Shown here piece after piece: positions 36,904 to 42,059 of a stretch of 49,163 nucleotides of DNA; position 1 is the first letter of the stretch; the number at the start of each line of letters is the position of its first letter. The position numbers and the translations under genes were made by a program. Under the pieces are notes generated by a model. That model had not been told where the DNA came from. It made no database searches and saw nothing but the letters and a program-made list of their open reading frames with translations. The stretch comes from Bacteroidales bacterium (GTDB lineage: Bacteria; Bacteroidota; Bacteroidia; Bacteroidales; P3). The stretch covers positions 1 to 49,163 of the forward strand of contig JAFVBF010000026.1 in the NCBI GenBank assembly GCA_017480145.1. Direction: 5' to 3'.

Positions 36904-38133
36904 ATGAAAAAACTGACTTTAACCATTGCTTTGATTGCGCTTGCCTGCACCAGCATGATGGCGCAGACAATCAATGTGCAGAGTGCAATTCAGGATTCTA
37001 AGAAAGGGTATCTCAACAAGGCCAAGCAGGAAATAGATTTGGCATGTGAGCATGAAAACACTAAAAATGATGCTAAGACTTGGTGCTATGCCGCTATGAT
37101 TTACTCCCAGATTGGCGGCGAGGCGGACAAGCCTAAGTCTAAGTTCAAAAACCTTGACCCCGACTGGCTGGAGAAAGCCTACAATGCGGCTCTCCGTTGT
37201 AAAGAGTTGGATAAGAGTAATGAATATGCCGACAATATTAATACTGTATTCAACTTTATTGGCGATAAATATTATACAATAGCTGTTACGGCTTATAATG
37301 ATGAAAAGGATTTTTCAAAATCCATGATGAATGCTGAGAAAGCCATTAAGATTTTTGAGAGTGCGGGATATAGAAACTATGCTGATGATGCTTATTATCT
37401 TGCTGGTCTAAATGGTAAGGCATTGAAAGATAATGATATTGTTCTGAAAAATTTTAAGGCTTTAGTTCGTCGCAAAACTGACAAAGAGGCAGTCTACCAG
37501 ACACTCTTTTCTATCTACAAGGAACAGCATGATACAATCGAAGCAGTCAAATTGGCAAATAACTATGTTAAAAACTGCCCAAATGACTATAATTCTTATC
37601 TTATGCTTGCTCAAGCACATCTGCTTCGTGGCGATATTGAGAGTGGCAAGGATATGATTAACAAATCTCTGGAAAAGGCCAAAGATAACCCTGAACTTTA
37701 TTCTAAATTGTTAGGTATTACGGCTGCTATATTAGAGACAAATAACGATTATGATGGTGCTGAGGCCAAATATAAGGAGTCACTTTCTATTACCCCAAAT
37801 CAGTTTGCAGCTAATTTCGGCTTAGGAAAGATGGTATATAACCGCGGTATTGATAAAATTGTCGCTGCTGAAGCTGTCCCCTTGGATGACGAAACGGGGC
37901 TGAATGAGAAATTGAATGAGGAAGCCAAGGCATTTTTCAACCAGTCCATACCTTATTTTACAAATGCTATCTCTTTTATTGACAACATCAAGGATGCAGA
38001 AGAGGCTCGTATGCAGCGCAAAAATCTATATGATTGTATGTCTGCTCTGAAAACAGTTTACGGCCGTCTTGAAATGTATGCCGAGGCAAAAGCCTTAGAA
38101 GCTCGTTTAAACGAAATTCGTTCACAACAGTAA
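36904..38133 (+). CDS. Secreted TPR-repeat protein in the gyrA operon
   Basis: The 409-residue protein has a signal peptide (LTLTIALIALACTSMMAQ) and tetratricopeptide-type helical repeats along most of its length. Examples are YLNKAKQEIDLACEHENTK, SKSMMNAEKAIKIFESAGY and YDGAEAKYKESLSITPNQFA. It probably acts in the periplasm as a scaffold; no enzymatic motif is visible. It lies 30 nt after gyrA without an intervening terminator, so it is expected on the same mRNA. Gene order gyrA-TPR is, from memory, common in Bacteroidales. It ends before the hairpin at 38192-38227. Confidence 0.82.
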   Translation: MKKLTLTIALIALACTSMMAQTINVQSAIQDSKKGYLNKAKQEIDLACEHENTKNDAKTWCYAAMIYSQIGGEADKPKSKFKNLDPDWLEKAYNAALRCKELDKSNEYADNINTVFNFIGDKYYTIAVTAYNDEKDFSKSMMNAEKAIKIFESAGYRNYADDAYYLAGLNGKALKDNDIVLKNFKALVRRKTDKEAVYQTLFSIYKEQHDTIEAVKLANNYVKNCPNDYNSYLMLAQAHLLRGDIESGKDMINKSLEKAKDNPELYSKLLGITAAILETNNDYDGAEAKYKESLSITPNQFAANFGLGKMVYNRGIDKIVAAEAVPLDDETGLNEKLNEEAKAFFNQSIPYFTNAISFIDNIKDAEEARMQRKNLYDCMSALKTVYGRLEMYAEAKALEARLNEIRSQQ

Positions 38134-38191
38134 GACGTTCTATTTTAGATTATGTGATGCGTCTATAATAGAAAGGATAAAATAGAAATAG

Positions 38192-38227
38192 GACACGCCG
38201 CAGCATGAACAAGAACTGCGGCGTGTC
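38192..38227 (+). terminator. Terminator after the gyrA-TPR operon
   Basis: GACACGCCGCAG (38192-38203) and CTGCGGCGTGTC (38216-38227) form a perfect 12-bp stem with a 12-nt loop, followed by TTATTTTA. Confidence 0.8.
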
Positions 38228-38514
38228 TTATTTTAGGGGTGCTTATTTCCAATATCTCTGCCTATGGTCGTGATGGATAGGTTTTGTATCGGTAGTAGTC
38301 ACATAATACATGGCAATCGGTTGTAATATCGCATTATACTATTTTTATCACTGTTCCCAAAATCTAATTTATCTCTATTTTAACTGAATTTGTGTTTTTA
38401 TGAGTCCTTCGATGAATCGTTCAACGCTTGCTCTAAAAAATAGAAGAATGTATTTTTGAAGCATTGAAGCACGGAGTAGATACCTATATGTTTCTATTCT
38501 GTTTTCCTCTTCCC

Positions 38515-38548
38515 AATATTGCTATATATGCAGCATATAAGTTATTCG
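38515..38548 (+). repeat. Left copy of a 34-bp direct repeat bounding the orphan-gene patch
   Basis: It matches 40253-40286 at 30 of 34 positions without gaps, including a perfect 20-mer (ATATGCAGCATATAAGTTAT at 38526 and 40264). The copies are 1738 bp apart. The core ATATGC-A-GCATAT is itself palindromic. Confidence 0.75.
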
Positions 38549-38584
38549 CCAGCATTTACGGTTTAAATTTAACCACTTCAATAT

Positions 38585-38603
38585 ATTGCCTGTCCAATAA
38601 AGT
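38585..38603 (+). repeat. Copy of the ATTGCTGTCCGATAAAA motif
   Basis: ATTGCCTGTCCAATAAAGT differs from the copy at 49026 (ATTGCTGTCCGATAAAACT) by one inserted C and two substitutions. Confidence 0.4.
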
Positions 38604-38821
38604 GTGGTGAAGCATCGTTTAACCTCATTAGAGGGACTGGTAACTTGTTAGTGCTGCCCACTCGACGTATTGTGCTTCTCTGCTTGGATTGACTTCGAAA
38701 AAGAATGCACACAAACTTATAGTTTTAGACATCACATAAAAGGGAGGGGGTAAAACTATCGTAAAAACGGATAAGAAAAAAACATAAGTCCTCTGAAGAG
38801 CATTAATTAAATTTATTCAAT

Positions 38822-38829
38822 TATCTTTG
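38822..38829 (+). promoter_or_regulatory. -7 box of the cupin gene
   Basis: TATCTTTG matches TAnnTTTG. It lies 26 nt before repeat R1 and about 80 nt before the ATG at 38909, placing R1 in the 5' leader. Confidence 0.5.
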
Positions 38830-38855
38830 CACTATCTTTTCCAAAGGGATAGGGC

Positions 38856-38887
38856 TGATAATGCGTAATATGTTAAGTGGATTAAAA
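38856..38887 (+). repeat. 32-nt punctuating repeat R1
   Basis: One of three ungapped 32-nt copies (also 39383-39414 and 39970-40001). The last 10 positions are identical in all three (TGGATTAAAA), and the first 8 read TGmTAATG. R1 is 21 nt upstream of the cupin start. Confidence 0.7.
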
Positions 38888-38908
38888 CCACATAAAGACA
38901 ATCCTCCT

Positions 38909-39364
38909 ATGGATGCAAAGAGAATGATAACGTTCCTCGGACTTCAGCCTCACCCAGAAGGCGGCTACTACCGTGCTGTCTTGGGCAATGAAAATGATGA
39001 GACGCAAGCGATATCTTCTATCCTTTATCTACTTCAAGGTAGCGATTTTTCTGCCTTTCACCGTCTGCATGGCCTGACGGAAATCTGGTATCATCATACT
39101 GGCGCAACGCTCAAAATTTTTATAATTGAGGCTGACGGGCGGCTGACCACACACCTGATATCACCTACGCACGAGCCGCAGGTAATCATCCAGCCCGACC
39201 TTTGGTTTGCTGCCGAACTGGCTACACCCGACGGTTTTTGCCTTGTTGGCTGCGCCGTGTCACCAGCCTTTACCTACAACCATTTCGAGTTGGCGCGAAA
39301 AAAAGATTTGCTGTCGCACTATCCCGAGCACAGCGAAATTATCAACCGTCTTTGCCGACAATAA
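38909..39364 (+). CDS. Cupin-fold protein of the DUF985/cupin_5 family
   Basis: From the ATG at 38909 (151 aa) the product starts MDAKRMITFLGLQPHPEGGYY, the usual opening of this cupin family. It continues with AISSILYLLQGSDFSAFHRL, EIWYHHTGATLKIFII and FAAELATPDGFCLVGCAVSP, then FTYNHFELARKKDLL. His residues in the F-H-R-L and W-Y-H-H strands sit where cupins bind metal. Small-molecule or sugar-related roles are suspected for the family, but the function here is unknown. An ATG at 38861 would add 16 residues running through repeat R1 and is rejected as the start. The gene sits alone between 32-nt repeats R1 and R2. Confidence 0.82.
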   Translation: MDAKRMITFLGLQPHPEGGYYRAVLGNENDETQAISSILYLLQGSDFSAFHRLHGLTEIWYHHTGATLKIFIIEADGRLTTHLISPTHEPQVIIQPDLWFAAELATPDGFCLVGCAVSPAFTYNHFELARKKDLLSHYPEHSEIINRLCRQ

Positions 39365-39382
39365 AAACACGATATAATCTGC

Positions 39383-39414
39383 TGCTAATGTATGTTGTAT
39401 GAAGTGGATTAAAA
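39383..39414 (+). repeat. 32-nt punctuating repeat R2
   Basis: It matches R3 at 26 and R1 at 24 of 32 positions, without gaps. It lies 18 nt after the cupin stop and 18 nt before the next start codon. Confidence 0.7.
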
Positions 39415-39432
39415 TGCTAATAACGACGAATT

Positions 39433-39939
39433 ATGCAGACTAAAATCTTTACGAACCTGAAGAAGGCTGTTTTTCTTCTCTTGTTGATGACATCCATAAG
39501 TCTCAATGCCCAAACAGCGAATATATCCTCCAACACAAGGTCTTTCAAGTATGAGCAGAAGGTTGATTCACTCTTGTCACAAATCAATACACTTCTAATG
39601 ATTAACAATGATTTGTTAGAACATTTGGAGATAAACTCATCATTGAAAGACCGATACAAACTGTACCAGACAGAGAATATATACACATTTCTTCAATTGG
39701 ACACAAAAACAGGGATGATAGAACAAGTCCAGTGGTCTTTGGATTCAGACAATGAAGGAAGTGTTCTCATAAATGGTGATGATTTAACTATTGGTTATGG
39801 CTATGGTTTAGGGTCATTTGAATTATACCCGACAAAGAATATGTATCAATTTATTCTTATCGATAAGACAAGCGGCAGGAAATGGCATATACAATGGGGC
39901 ATGGAAAGTCGTAAACGTTGGATTAGAAAAATTAACTAA
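39433..39939 (+). CDS. Secreted protein with two LYxTxNxYxFxxLDxxTG...QW repeats
   Basis: The 168-residue product has a signal peptide (about 1-26, ending ISLNAQ), a helical stretch (about 38-72) and two copies of a roughly 29-residue beta motif. Copy 1 (about 75-103) contains LYQTENIYTFLQLDTKTG and VQWSL. Copy 2 (about 129-157) contains LYPTKNMYQFILIDKTSG and IQWGM. I recall similar LDTxTGxxWxVQWS repeats in uncharacterised Bacteroidetes accessory proteins, without a known function. The copies look like successive blades of a small beta structure. The gene is flanked by 32-nt repeats R2 and R3. No enzyme motif is visible. Confidence 0.7.
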   Translation: MQTKIFTNLKKAVFLLLLMTSISLNAQTANISSNTRSFKYEQKVDSLLSQINTLLMINNDLLEHLEINSSLKDRYKLYQTENIYTFLQLDTKTGMIEQVQWSLDSDNEGSVLINGDDLTIGYGYGLGSFELYPTKNMYQFILIDKTSGRKWHIQWGMESRKRWIRKIN

Positions 39940-39969
39940 TCATGCTGCGCAATGAACACCTATCTCGGT

Positions 39970-40001
39970 TGATAATGTGTGTAATGTGAGGTGGATTAAA
40001 A
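39970..40001 (+). repeat. 32-nt punctuating repeat R3
   Basis: It matches R1 and R2 at 26 of 32 positions each, without gaps. It lies 30 nt after the stop of the VQW-repeat gene, before a stretch with only very short ORFs. Confidence 0.7.
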
Positions 40002-40021
40002 TACATTAGCACTATGTTTTT

Positions 40022-40114
40022 ATGGCTTTGAGGATAGGCATAGTTTATTTTGTTGATGAGGAAATCCTGAAACCCTCTTTGCTGGGTAGGCATTTACATC
40101 AATGTTGCTCCTGA
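40022..40114 (+). CDS. Doubtful 30-codon ORF after repeat R3
   Basis: ATG at 40022 to TGA at 40112-40114 encodes MALRIGIVYFVDEEILKPSL and a short end. It occupies the position of a cassette gene after R3, but it is tiny and may be noise or a decayed gene. Confidence 0.2.
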   Translation: MALRIGIVYFVDEEILKPSLLGRHLHQCCS

Positions 40115-40135
40115 CAAAGATAGAGTCCCTTTGTT

Positions 40136-40246
40136 ATGAGCAAATATTTCTCAGTCGAAGACTGCTACGGCGCTGAAGGCAATTTTGAATTTGAAGTTTT
40201 AGAAGATGCTATCATGGATGGCGAGTATGTGCCTGGGAATCAGTAA
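40136..40246 (+). CDS. Small acidic ORF (36 aa), possible remnant gene
   Basis: ATG at 40136 to TAA at 40244-40246 encodes an acidic 36-residue peptide beginning MSKYFSVEDCYGAEGNFEFE and ending VPGNQ. The composition looks coding (11 acidic against one basic residue) and resembles the start of small acidic immunity-like proteins, but I recognise no family. It lies between repeat R3 and the right 34-bp repeat. It could be a complete micro-protein or the stub of a truncated gene. Confidence 0.35.
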   Translation: MSKYFSVEDCYGAEGNFEFEVLEDAIMDGEYVPGNQ

Positions 40247-40252
40247 AGGATA

Positions 40253-40286
40253 AATATTGTAACATATGCAGCATATAAGTTATCCG
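40253..40286 (+). repeat. Right copy of the 34-bp direct repeat
   Basis: It pairs with 38515-38548 (30 of 34 identical, perfect 20-mer core). It begins 7 nt after the stop of the 36-aa ORF, and the rpsP terminator follows 70 nt later. Confidence 0.75.
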
Positions 40287-40358
40287 ACAAATTTGTATGT
40301 TTTTGACATTCATGACTAATTATACTATTGGCGAATTAAAATTATAATTGTGTGACAA

Positions 40359-40391
40359 AAAAAAGGACGAAGATATTCTTCGTCCTTTTTT
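40359..40391. terminator. rpsP terminator (bidirectional)
   Basis: A perfect 14-bp stem (40359-40372 / 40378-40391) with loop ATATT, flanked by A and T runs, lies 44 nt beyond the rpsP stop. Confidence 0.9.
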
Positions 40392-40434
40392 GTTATGATT
40401 CTTACTAATTATGGTAAAGATTCTTCTTCGAATC

Positions 40435-40983
40435 TTACTCTGCTGCGGGGACTGACTCCTCGTTGCTTTCGTTAGTTGCGGCAGCTTCGGCTTCTGCTTT
40501 TGCAGCAGCTTCAGCTTCTGCAGCGGCTTGACGTTTGGCAGCAACAGCAGCAGCTTTATTTTCATTAACCTTCTTCTCTGCTTCAAGACGGGCTTTCTTT
40601 ACTTCGCGACGGCCGCTTTCTATTTCGCTGGCAGCCTTGCTAATCTTAGCTTCTTTTTCCTGAAGCCACTGGTTGAAGCGCATATCGGCCACTTCTTGGC
40701 TGATTGCACCCTTTTCAACGCCAATCTGTAGGTGACGTTTCAGCAATGCACCTTTGTATGACAGAATGCGACGAGCCGTAGTAGAGGGCTCTGCGCCGTT
40801 CTTGAGCCAACGGACGGCACTGTCTATGTTCAGCTCAATTTGAGCAGGCTGGGTCTGAGGATTATACGTGCCTAATTTCTCGATGAATTTACCGTCCCGA
40901 GGTGCACGACCATCCGCAACAACGATGTGGAAGATAGCTTGATTCTTCTTGCCATGTCGTTGTAATCTAATTCTTGCAGGCAT
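40435..40983 (-). CDS. rpsP: 30S ribosomal protein S16 with Ala/Glu-rich C-terminal extension
   Basis: From the ATG at 40983 the product has 182 residues. The first 80 are the conserved S16 fold (MPARIRLQRHGKKNQAIFHI, VVADGRAPRDGKFIEKLGTY, NPQTQPAQIELNIDSAVRWL). The rest is a charged helical tail (EKEAKISKAASEIESGRREV) and an Ala/Glu low-complexity end. The long tail is known for Bacteroidetes S16. A longer start 19 codons upstream lies in the leader and is rejected. The promoter is a near-perfect TTTG-N19-TATCTTTG on the minus strand. The gene is not in the usual rpsP-rimM-trmD order. Confidence 0.95.
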   Translation of the reverse strand: MPARIRLQRHGKKNQAIFHIVVADGRAPRDGKFIEKLGTYNPQTQPAQIELNIDSAVRWLKNGAEPSTTARRILSYKGALLKRHLQIGVEKGAISQEVADMRFNQWLQEKEAKISKAASEIESGRREVKKARLEAEKKVNENKAAAVAAKRQAAAEAEAAAKAEAEAAATNESNEESVPAAE

Positions 40984-41037
40984 AATGTTTTGTTTTTTAA
41001 TTTGTTGTTTTGTGAGCGGGCTTTCCGCTTTGATGTG

Positions 41038-41068
41038 CAAAGATATAAAAGTTTTTGATTTTGAACAA
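41038..41068 (-). promoter_or_regulatory. rpsP promoter (TTTG-N19-TATCTTTG)
   Basis: On the minus strand the -33 TTTG (complement of 41065-41068) is followed after 19 nt by the -7 box TATCTTTG (complement of 41038-41045). Both match the Bacteroidetes consensus. The 5' leader is about 50 nt. Confidence 0.75.
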
Positions 41069-41084
41069 ATAAATAGTAGTTTTG
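41054..41084 (+). promoter_or_regulatory. ribF promoter (TTTG-N19-TAGTTTTG)
   Basis: -33 TTTG (41054-41057), 19-nt spacer, -7 TAGTTTTG (41077-41084). It interleaves with the divergent rpsP promoter. It also shows that translation cannot start at the TTG at 41082, which lies inside the -7 box. Confidence 0.75.
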
Positions 41085-41102
41085 CATTTTCATTTTTCAG
41101 CT

Positions 41103-42059
41103 GTGGCTATTTTTAAATTTCCTCATATTCCTCTGAGTTTAAACAGTTCTATCGTTACCGTAGGTATGTTCGATGGTGTCCATATCGGGCACCGGCATAT
41201 TGTGGGAACTTTGATACATGAGGCTGAACAAAGGTTTTTACGTCCACTTGTGGTGACTTTTGACCGACATCCACGTAGTGTTTTAGGCTGTTCTGGGGTG
41301 AGTCAGGCGTTGTTATGTGATGCTGGTGAACGGGTTGAACGTCTACAGGCTTTGGGTGACATAGATATTGTTGTTCTGCCCTTCGATAAAGATATGTCAC
41401 AGTTATCAGCCTGCGAATTCCTTCGGCAGATATTGGTGGCACGTCTGGGGTGTCGTGCTATTCTTTTGGGCTATGACAATTCTTTTGGCAGCAAACACAG
41501 GGATGATTTTGGACAACTGCCTATTCTTGCAGACGAGTTAAAAATATCTCTGTTGCGCGACAACCCTATCCTAATTGATGGGGCGCCTGTCAGTTCCAGT
41601 AGAATCCGTAAAACTATTGGGGCTGGTGATATGGTATTGACACGTCGATTGCTCGGTCATAGTTATGGGGTATCTGGATGCGTTTTTTCTGGACGAAAAG
41701 TCGGACGGACGATAGGGTTCCCTACGGCAAATGTTAGTCTGGCAGGGTCGGGGAGACTGCTCCCTAAGGTAGGTGTTTATGCCGTTCATGTCCACCGTCA
41801 AGATGAGAATCGAGCTTTGTTGGGCATGTGCAATTTGGGCGGGCAGCCTACGTTTGGTTTAGACGATGTGACACTCGAAGTGAATATCTTCGATTTTAGC
41901 GAATCGCTGTATGAAGAGGTTGTCGAGGTCTCTTTTGAATGGCGTTTGCGCGATATAGTTCGCTTTGATACTGTTGATGAGCTTCGTGCTCAATTGCAAA
42001 GTGATCAGGCAGCAATTCGACGGTGGTTCGCTGCCAATAGCCCTTACGACAATGTTTAG
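41103..42059 (+). CDS. ribF: Bifunctional riboflavin kinase / FAD synthetase
   Basis: The 318-residue enzyme converts riboflavin to FMN and then FAD. The N-terminal adenylyltransferase has VTVGMFDGVHIGHRHIV, VVTFDRHPRSVLG and ISLLRDNPILIDGAPVSSSR. The C-terminal kinase has GRKVGRTIGFPTANV and a late LEVNIFDFSESLY, with the family Glu near the end. I chose the GTG at 41103 because the alternative TTG at 41082 lies within the promoter -7 box. It overlaps the LRR gene by 8 nt at its 3' end, so they are translationally coupled. No FMN riboswitch is seen in the short leader. Confidence 0.93.
   Translation: MAIFKFPHIPLSLNSSIVTVGMFDGVHIGHRHIVGTLIHEAEQRFLRPLVVTFDRHPRSVLGCSGVSQALLCDAGERVERLQALGDIDIVVLPFDKDMSQLSACEFLRQILVARLGCRAILLGYDNSFGSKHRDDFGQLPILADELKISLLRDNPILIDGAPVSSSRIRKTIGAGDMVLTRRLLGHSYGVSGCVFSGRKVGRTIGFPTANVSLAGSGRLLPKVGVYAVHVHRQDENRALLGMCNLGGQPTFGLDDVTLEVNIFDFSESLYEEVVEVSFEWRLRDIVRFDTVDELRAQLQSDQAAIRRWFAANSPYDNV

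Follow-up and report, generated by a model that had tools for sequence, protein, structure and literature searches.

Short gene units bordered by dif-like sites, the dif (pdif) modules, are reported to be characteristic of Acinetobacter and to carry resistance genes, among others, in that genus (PMC6449649); in the same report, pdif sites were absent from 39 plasmids of the neighboring Psychrobacter and Moraxella. One Acinetobacter chromosome contained 22 dif sites, namely, the main dif and others, ten of them clustered in a separate island (PMC12907356), and neighboring sites in this genus alternate in direction, as C and D modules (PMC13141974, PMC12907356). For Bacteroidales, the dif-linked elements that we met in print are microvirus proviruses (PMC3091885); in the mostly open-access dif/Xer literature on Bacteroidota that was searched, judged by titles, abstract openings, and parts of PMC3091885, no module array of such a kind is described. 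Here, we analyzed a 49,163-nucleotide contig of a Bacteroidales bacterium (the window, which is contig 18 among the 86 contigs of a 1.9-Mb draft genome with 80.7% completeness), and we describe an islet at positions 38515 to 40286 in which three repeats, R1 to R3, alternate with small genes between two 34-bp direct repeats. The R repeats are very probably dif-like XerC/XerD sites, and, from the sequence, we lean slightly toward the view that the islet is, or once was, a short chromosomal Xer-driven array of single-gene modules behind one promoter. "Own genome" below means the 80.7%-complete draft, and copy counts apply to its contigs. The comparison set consisted of 119 to 120 genomes of the same genus, with further strains of the species itself absent from it.

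Inner repeats and their relation to dif sites

The islet has the order left 34-bp repeat, leader, promoter-like box, R1, cupin gene, R2, orphan gene, R3, 36-amino-acid (aa) gene, and right 34-bp repeat. A first-pass annotation had placed three 32-nt repeats at 38856, 39383, and 39970, and these were confirmed: as 34-nt units (38854-38887, 39381-39414, and 39968-40001), they were identical pairwise at 26, 27, and 27 of 34 positions, above the best value of 22 to 25 of 34 in 40 dinucleotide shuffles of a 4-kb region, with repeat-to-repeat spacings of 527 (R1-R2) and 587 (R2-R3) bp. Their short core, AAGTGGATTAAAA, was unremarkable alone, with five occurrences in the window at two mismatches versus 2.4 expected. 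Inspection by eye led us to discard a CRISPR-like interpretation of GTGGATTAAAA, in view of the spacings of 527 and 587 nt and the genes between. The repeats follow a layout of an 11-nt left arm, a 6-nt spacer, and an 11-nt right arm, all on the plus strand and in one (direct) orientation: AGGGCTGATAA/TGCGTA/ATATGTTAAGT for R1 (38851-38878), TCTGCTGCTAA/TGTATG/TTGTATGAAGT for R2 (39378-39405), and TCGGTTGATAA/TGTGTG/TAATGTGAGGT for R3 (39965-39992), the right arms of R2 and R3 being degenerate.

The likeness to dif was assessed with the printed sites of E. coli, B. subtilis, and Frankia alni, the last of which is a predicted site (PMC3025954). With a matrix of only these three sites, R1, R2, and R3 ranked 1, 2, and 19 of 98,272 window positions, and none of 300 matrices with permuted columns matched these ranks when 13 offsets were allowed. 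Compared with single published sites, R1 was the best position in the window for both E. coli and Frankia (20/28 each); R3 reached at most 16/28 and was not outstanding. As a set, the repeats have the 28-bp arrangement of XerC arm, 6-bp spacer, and XerD arm, strongly in R1 and more weakly in R2 and R3.

Sites from the genus gave a similar picture. A strict dif pattern (ANAA, six free bases, TTATGTNAARTNG) was present at 26 places in 22 of the 119 genus genomes, and in the own genome it fit one place only, the repeat copy R5 (C32:13635). From these 26 places, a matrix of 19 congener sites was derived by dropping the own site (L115), the atypical L111, L124, and L132, and three further copies from genome G055 (L131, L133, and L134); an 18-site version omitted one more duplicate. 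The 19-site matrix scored R5 at 34.1 bits, followed by R1 (18.7), R4 (12.1), R3 (8.8), R2 (5.5), and R6 (3.7), and among 98,268 window positions it ranked R1 first, R3 second, and R2 seventh, with 8.1 bits for the best position outside the repeats. When the 18-site matrix was applied to 846,220 strand-bases (the window, stretches of the own contigs, and 15 congener loci), R1-R2-R3 was the one case of three same-strand sites that each reached 5 bits within 1.2 kb; when the 18-site matrix was permuted, 0 of 200 versions placed every one of the three at rank 7 or better. A covariance model based on sequence alone, built from the 18 congener dif sites and run in local mode, returned R1 as its top match in the window (expect value [E], 0.024) and R5 in the own genome (E, 1.1e-4). 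At E values up to 0.001, this model found a site in 20 of the 119 genomes, so that, with the pattern in 22, the genus dif is known for a minority of the genomes only.

Three copies lay outside the islet. R4 (TACGCTACTAA/TGCGGG/TTATGTGAAGT; C71:99389) is a strong fourth copy about 140 nt behind a tRNA-Ser gene, and R5 (TTTTCTGATAA/TGCGCG/TTATGTTAAGT) and R6 (ACTGCTGATAG/TGCGTG/TTATGCAAGGT; C54:5103) are weaker copies, each between convergent open reading frames (ORFs). Right-arm identity to TTATGTTAAGT was 10, 8, 8, 10, 11, and 8 of 11 for R1 to R6, respectively. A model of R1 to R4 searched over the 119 genus genomes had both of its two top further matches in the own genome (E, 0.0115 and 0.0256), the best being R5; the top match in any other genome had an E value of 0.039. 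In genome contigs, eight stretches from seven genomes had the pattern TAATGNGNGTTATGTNAAGTRG; on inspection by eye, some of these stretches fall within genes. In viral contigs, R patterns gave six stretches that by eye lay within reading frames or were otherwise unrelated, a second search there gave none, and R1 with its flanks matched plasmids only at E values of 1 or worse. A reading of the R repeats as operators or promoter repeats was rejected, since none of R4, R5, and R6 leads into a gene in its own direction.

We took R5 as the putative chromosomal dif and R1 to R4 plus R6 as a family probably derived from it, because their 3' ends (RGTGG) differ from those of the 18 congener sites (RTAG) and the TGCG spacer start is kept: R1, R4, and R6 share it with R5, and none of the 18 congener spacers starts with TGC. 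With a crude ORF caller, R5 and 12 of 15 congener dif sites were found between convergent ORFs. The GC skew, examined for a sign that the own site lies at the terminus, was higher after dif than before it in 12 of the 15 congener loci; within 10 kb of the own site (C32:13634), it was -0.005 before and -0.015 after, and for the whole 51-kb contig that carries R5 it was -0.004 on the left and +0.055 on the right, with the cumulative minimum at 17.3 kb. The gene context of the own dif was not conserved across the 15 congener dif loci, with 1 of 15 proteins matched, in two loci.

Three side observations concern repeats of this type. Genome G055 contains four repeat copies (L121, L131, L133, and L134) of approximately 230 to 540 bp that are 80 to 96% alike, each with a dif-like site, and two of the four are near contig ends. 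Genome G063 gave seven equal weak matches of the R1-R4 model (L078, L095, and five more), apparently another dispersed repeat. In the own genome, similar ORFs ending in VRLVQD (L099:3-1613 on G000:C77, with two in tandem, and L098:131-1504 on G000:C54) stand upstream of R-like sequences, namely, a weak match on C77 and R6 on C54.

Genes, promoter, and boundaries of the islet

The leader that follows the left 34-bp repeat has no ORFs of 60 aa, and a promoter-like box, TATCTTTG, was read in the sequence at 38822-38829 on the plus strand. This box fits the Bacteroidota -7 promoter element, and its surroundings, approximately 45 nt, are similar to sequence from four congeners (three of these were read). 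The cupin (DUF985) gene (38909-39364, plus strand) was assigned by a match of the longer ORF 38861-39364 to PF06172 (E, 1.8e-33); its start is probably the ATG at 38909, past R1, rather than position 38861 inside R1. The orphan gene (39433-39939, plus strand) encodes a secreted-looking protein of 168 aa with no Pfam family. Thus placed, the genes are separated from the repeats by 30 (R1-cupin), 13 (cupin-R2), 27 (R2-orphan), and 25 (orphan-R3) nt, and these short gaps leave the orphan gene little room for a promoter of its own. The first-pass statement that one unrelated small gene closely follows each of R1 and R2 stood, with the gap before the cupin widened to 30 nt by the probable later start. 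Since the two genes are unrelated (a cupin family versus no family), a single ancient gene duplication, which had been offered as an alternative, was rejected.

Only very short ORFs had been noted after R3. However, the ORF of 36 aa at 40136-40246 (plus strand), 143 nt past R3, has a 37-aa homologue in a congener (L006, near 1490-1603), with 73% identity over 89 nt and an E value of 2.7e-7 for that genome. The protein (..EDAIMDGEYVP..) had no PHROG or NCBIfam family and no plasmid or phage match. By eye, the gene preceding the L006 homologue resembles a YhcG-type nuclease gene.

The two 34-bp direct repeats (38515-38548 and 40253-40286, both plus strand) were also as first described, with 30 of 34 positions identical around an identical 20-mer; when 37500-41500 was shuffled 40 times with dinucleotides preserved, the best direct 34-mer pair reached 22 to 25 of 34. 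The right copy starts 6 nt past the stop of the 36-aa gene. Core genes surround the islet, and the pair itself encloses 1.7 kb of accessory genes. At up to two mismatches, the 20-mer core occurred in the own genome in these two copies only, and viral contigs gave no exact match to the core plus YCG. It is plausible that the 34-bp pair marks the boundaries of an inserted unit whose entry was an event distinct from recombination at the R sites; the pair could be the att repeats of that event.

The Pfam scan covered every one of the 30 window ORFs with 180 aa or more, together with the patch proteins. Families were found for 28 of the 30 ORFs, mostly core functions, and none of the 30 belonged to an integrase or resolvase family (outside the patch, the scan went no shorter than 180 aa), in agreement with the reported lack of a recombinase in the window. 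The window gave no Rfam match at the gathering score. As had also been noted, attC features were not recognizable: an inverted-repeat scan of 38500-40320 found no attC-like long imperfect palindrome at R1 to R3, only short chance-like pairs touching R3. The locus was carried by none of 120 genus genomes; the ten that matched at E values up to 0.001 were the own genome and nine matches to short pieces. Within the DNA read, ribF stands beside rpsP in 4 of 29 congener rpsP loci examined, and in two of these four, read on the other side, the genes differ, so that no empty insertion site can be defined.

Homologues of the cupin gene were present in at least two congeners (L005 and L007), and homologues of the orphan gene were present in 4 other genomes of the 119 searched. 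Among the latter, one adjoins a tyrosine integrase gene (L027), one adjoins a gene with a recG-C-terminal-type domain (L028), and one lies between genes that by eye resemble type I restriction genes (L030); the surroundings of the fourth (L029) held nothing decisive. A relative with 60% identity is encoded on MT838449.1, an unverified record labeled Bacteriophage sp. on which a relaxase and MobC are also encoded, and weaker relatives are encoded on two Bacteroidota plasmids. With relatives beside an integrase gene, on a relaxase-bearing record, and on plasmids, the orphan gene looks like a mobilome gene. The MT838449.1 record itself (L192; 1867-2328 and 3640-5191) is more like a mobilizable element than a phage, because it combines the relaxase and MobC with the orphan relative. 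Patch DNA had no match in plasmids, and the orphan protein had none in viral contigs.

Proposed Xer-driven movement and its alternatives

The layout is that of an integron array in which dif-like sites replace attI and attC. As in an integron cassette array, a leading promoter and a first site are followed by tightly spaced gene-plus-site units that all point one way, with one compact gene in each of the first two intervals; unlike an integron, the islet has dif-like sites, no attC palindromes were found, and integrase genes were absent from the 30 larger ORFs of the window. Because the inner repeats are dif-like, the missing recombinase would be the host XerC/XerD rather than an integron integrase. 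Both xerC and xerD genes are reported in Bacteroidetes (PMC3091885). XerC and XerD would pair two directly oriented sites with similar spacers and exchange strands, so releasing or taking up the interval from one R site to the next as a circle. The islet genes would be transcribed from the promoter before R1, and the whole islet would have entered at the 34-bp repeats in a separate event. Under this proposal, XerCD moved these genes, as we infer from the sites. The spacers of R2 and R3 differ at one position, those of R1 and R3 at two, and those of R1 and R2 at three. In Acinetobacter, sites recombined despite one spacer mismatch, which adjoined the XerC arm (PMC13141974), whereas the R2/R3 mismatch does not adjoin that arm.

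The islet shares with the Acinetobacter dif modules short gene units, several in a row, with dif-like sites of 11-nt arms and 6-nt spacers that are extra to the main chromosomal dif, and no need for a recombinase gene of its own (PMC6449649, PMC13141974, PMC12907356). It differs from them in having one site direction, one gene per interval, a shared promoter, two degenerate sites, and a host in another phylum. As its sites do not alternate, we do not file it among the dif modules but regard it only as working alike. The Bacteroidales microvirus proviruses belong to the same order and also have direct dif-like repeats and no recombinase of their own, but they enclose approximately 6 kb of phage genes, whereas the islet holds single genes of approximately 0.5 kb without phage matches (PMC3091885).

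Several results weigh against an Xer-driven array. Known dif modules alternate in site direction, and R1 to R3 all point one way. The right arms of R2 and R3 agree with the consensus at only 8 of 11 positions; these two sites may now be slow or dead, and present activity of the islet is doubtful because of these poor arms. The congener covariance model in local mode did not return R3 and gave for R2 solely a weak match on the opposite strand (E, 9.2). R4 to R6 are solitary, with no neighboring module, and among the genus genomes searched, none showed the locus empty, excised, or rearranged. In 10 loci that carry homologues of the cargo genes, the dif matrix gave at most 6.6 bits and the R matrix at most 11.0, compared with 19.5 for R1 and 35 to 37 for R1 to R3, respectively; the lack of comparable sites leaves modular movement of the same gene elsewhere without support, and a module with flanking sites was found in none of the genus genomes, plasmids, and cargo-homologue loci searched. 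The first-pass reading as a cassette array thus kept its anatomy and gained a candidate mechanism, while the gain, loss, or reordering it predicted was not found in the 120 genus genomes, none of which carries the locus. Its further expectation of many copies, each heading a different gene, was not borne out, with three of six copies in the patch and the other three alone, one behind a tRNA-Ser gene and two between convergent genes.

The likeliest rival, although an unlikely one in our judgment, is that the R repeats are scars left by Xer-using mobile elements, such as microvirus proviruses at dif-like sites, and that the genes between them are bystanders. Bacteroidales do harbor microvirus-related proviruses flanked by dif-like direct repeats (PMC3091885), and the solitary state of R4 to R6 would suit such scars. 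However, no phage gene, whether for replication or capsid, was found between the sites, the best PHROG match of the three patch proteins had an E value of 0.67, and three sites in one direction with a tightly fitted gene in each of two intervals are hard to obtain from scars. We give less credence to a low-copy extragenic repeat of the REP (repetitive extragenic palindromic) type that is unrelated to Xer and owes its likeness to dif to chance or to convergent protein binding. In its favor, the six copies all lie between genes, most of them follow closely on a gene end, and R2, R3, and R6 have poor right arms; this explanation has to contend with published dif sites that pick R1 and R2 as the top two of 98,272 positions (0 of 300 permuted matrices) and with a repeat model that leads to the genome's own dif-like site, R5. 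Lowest of the three, and improbable, is a decayed integrative element with the 34-bp repeats as its att sites, in which R1 to R3 are incidental to movement. The 30/34 repeat pair, its identical 20-bp core, and 1.7 kb of accessory genes amid core genes fit this; the absence of an integrase among the 30 larger ORFs, of a third core copy in the genome, and of an exact viral-contig match to the core plus YCG do not, and R1 to R3 are left unexplained. Such an element is compatible with Xer-driven modules, and both can be true together.

A separate locus with same-direction dif-like sites was noticed in Pedobacter sp. ISL-64 (NZ_JAGGPU010000020.1). Two dif-like 22-mers (L160:7852-7873 and L161:4053-4074), approximately 4.2 kb apart, each lie by eye downstream of an Rhs-core-like ORF end, and one is near two adjacent PF00589 tyrosine recombinase genes; the locus may be a cassette array for Rhs tips that has an Xer-like pair of its own.

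Beyond the single islet, we suggest as a tentative and rather doubtful generalization that some Bacteroidota have integrase-less, integron-like cassettes, that is, single genes that are stacked behind a promoter, each followed by a dif-like site in one orientation, and are exchanged by the housekeeping XerCD through spacer homology among these sites and the chromosomal dif. For other genomes, this gives the search rule of a dif-like site shortly after a stop codon, with several in one direction. If true, XerCD-driven shuffling of single genes would be broader than Acinetobacter and could take an integron-like form.

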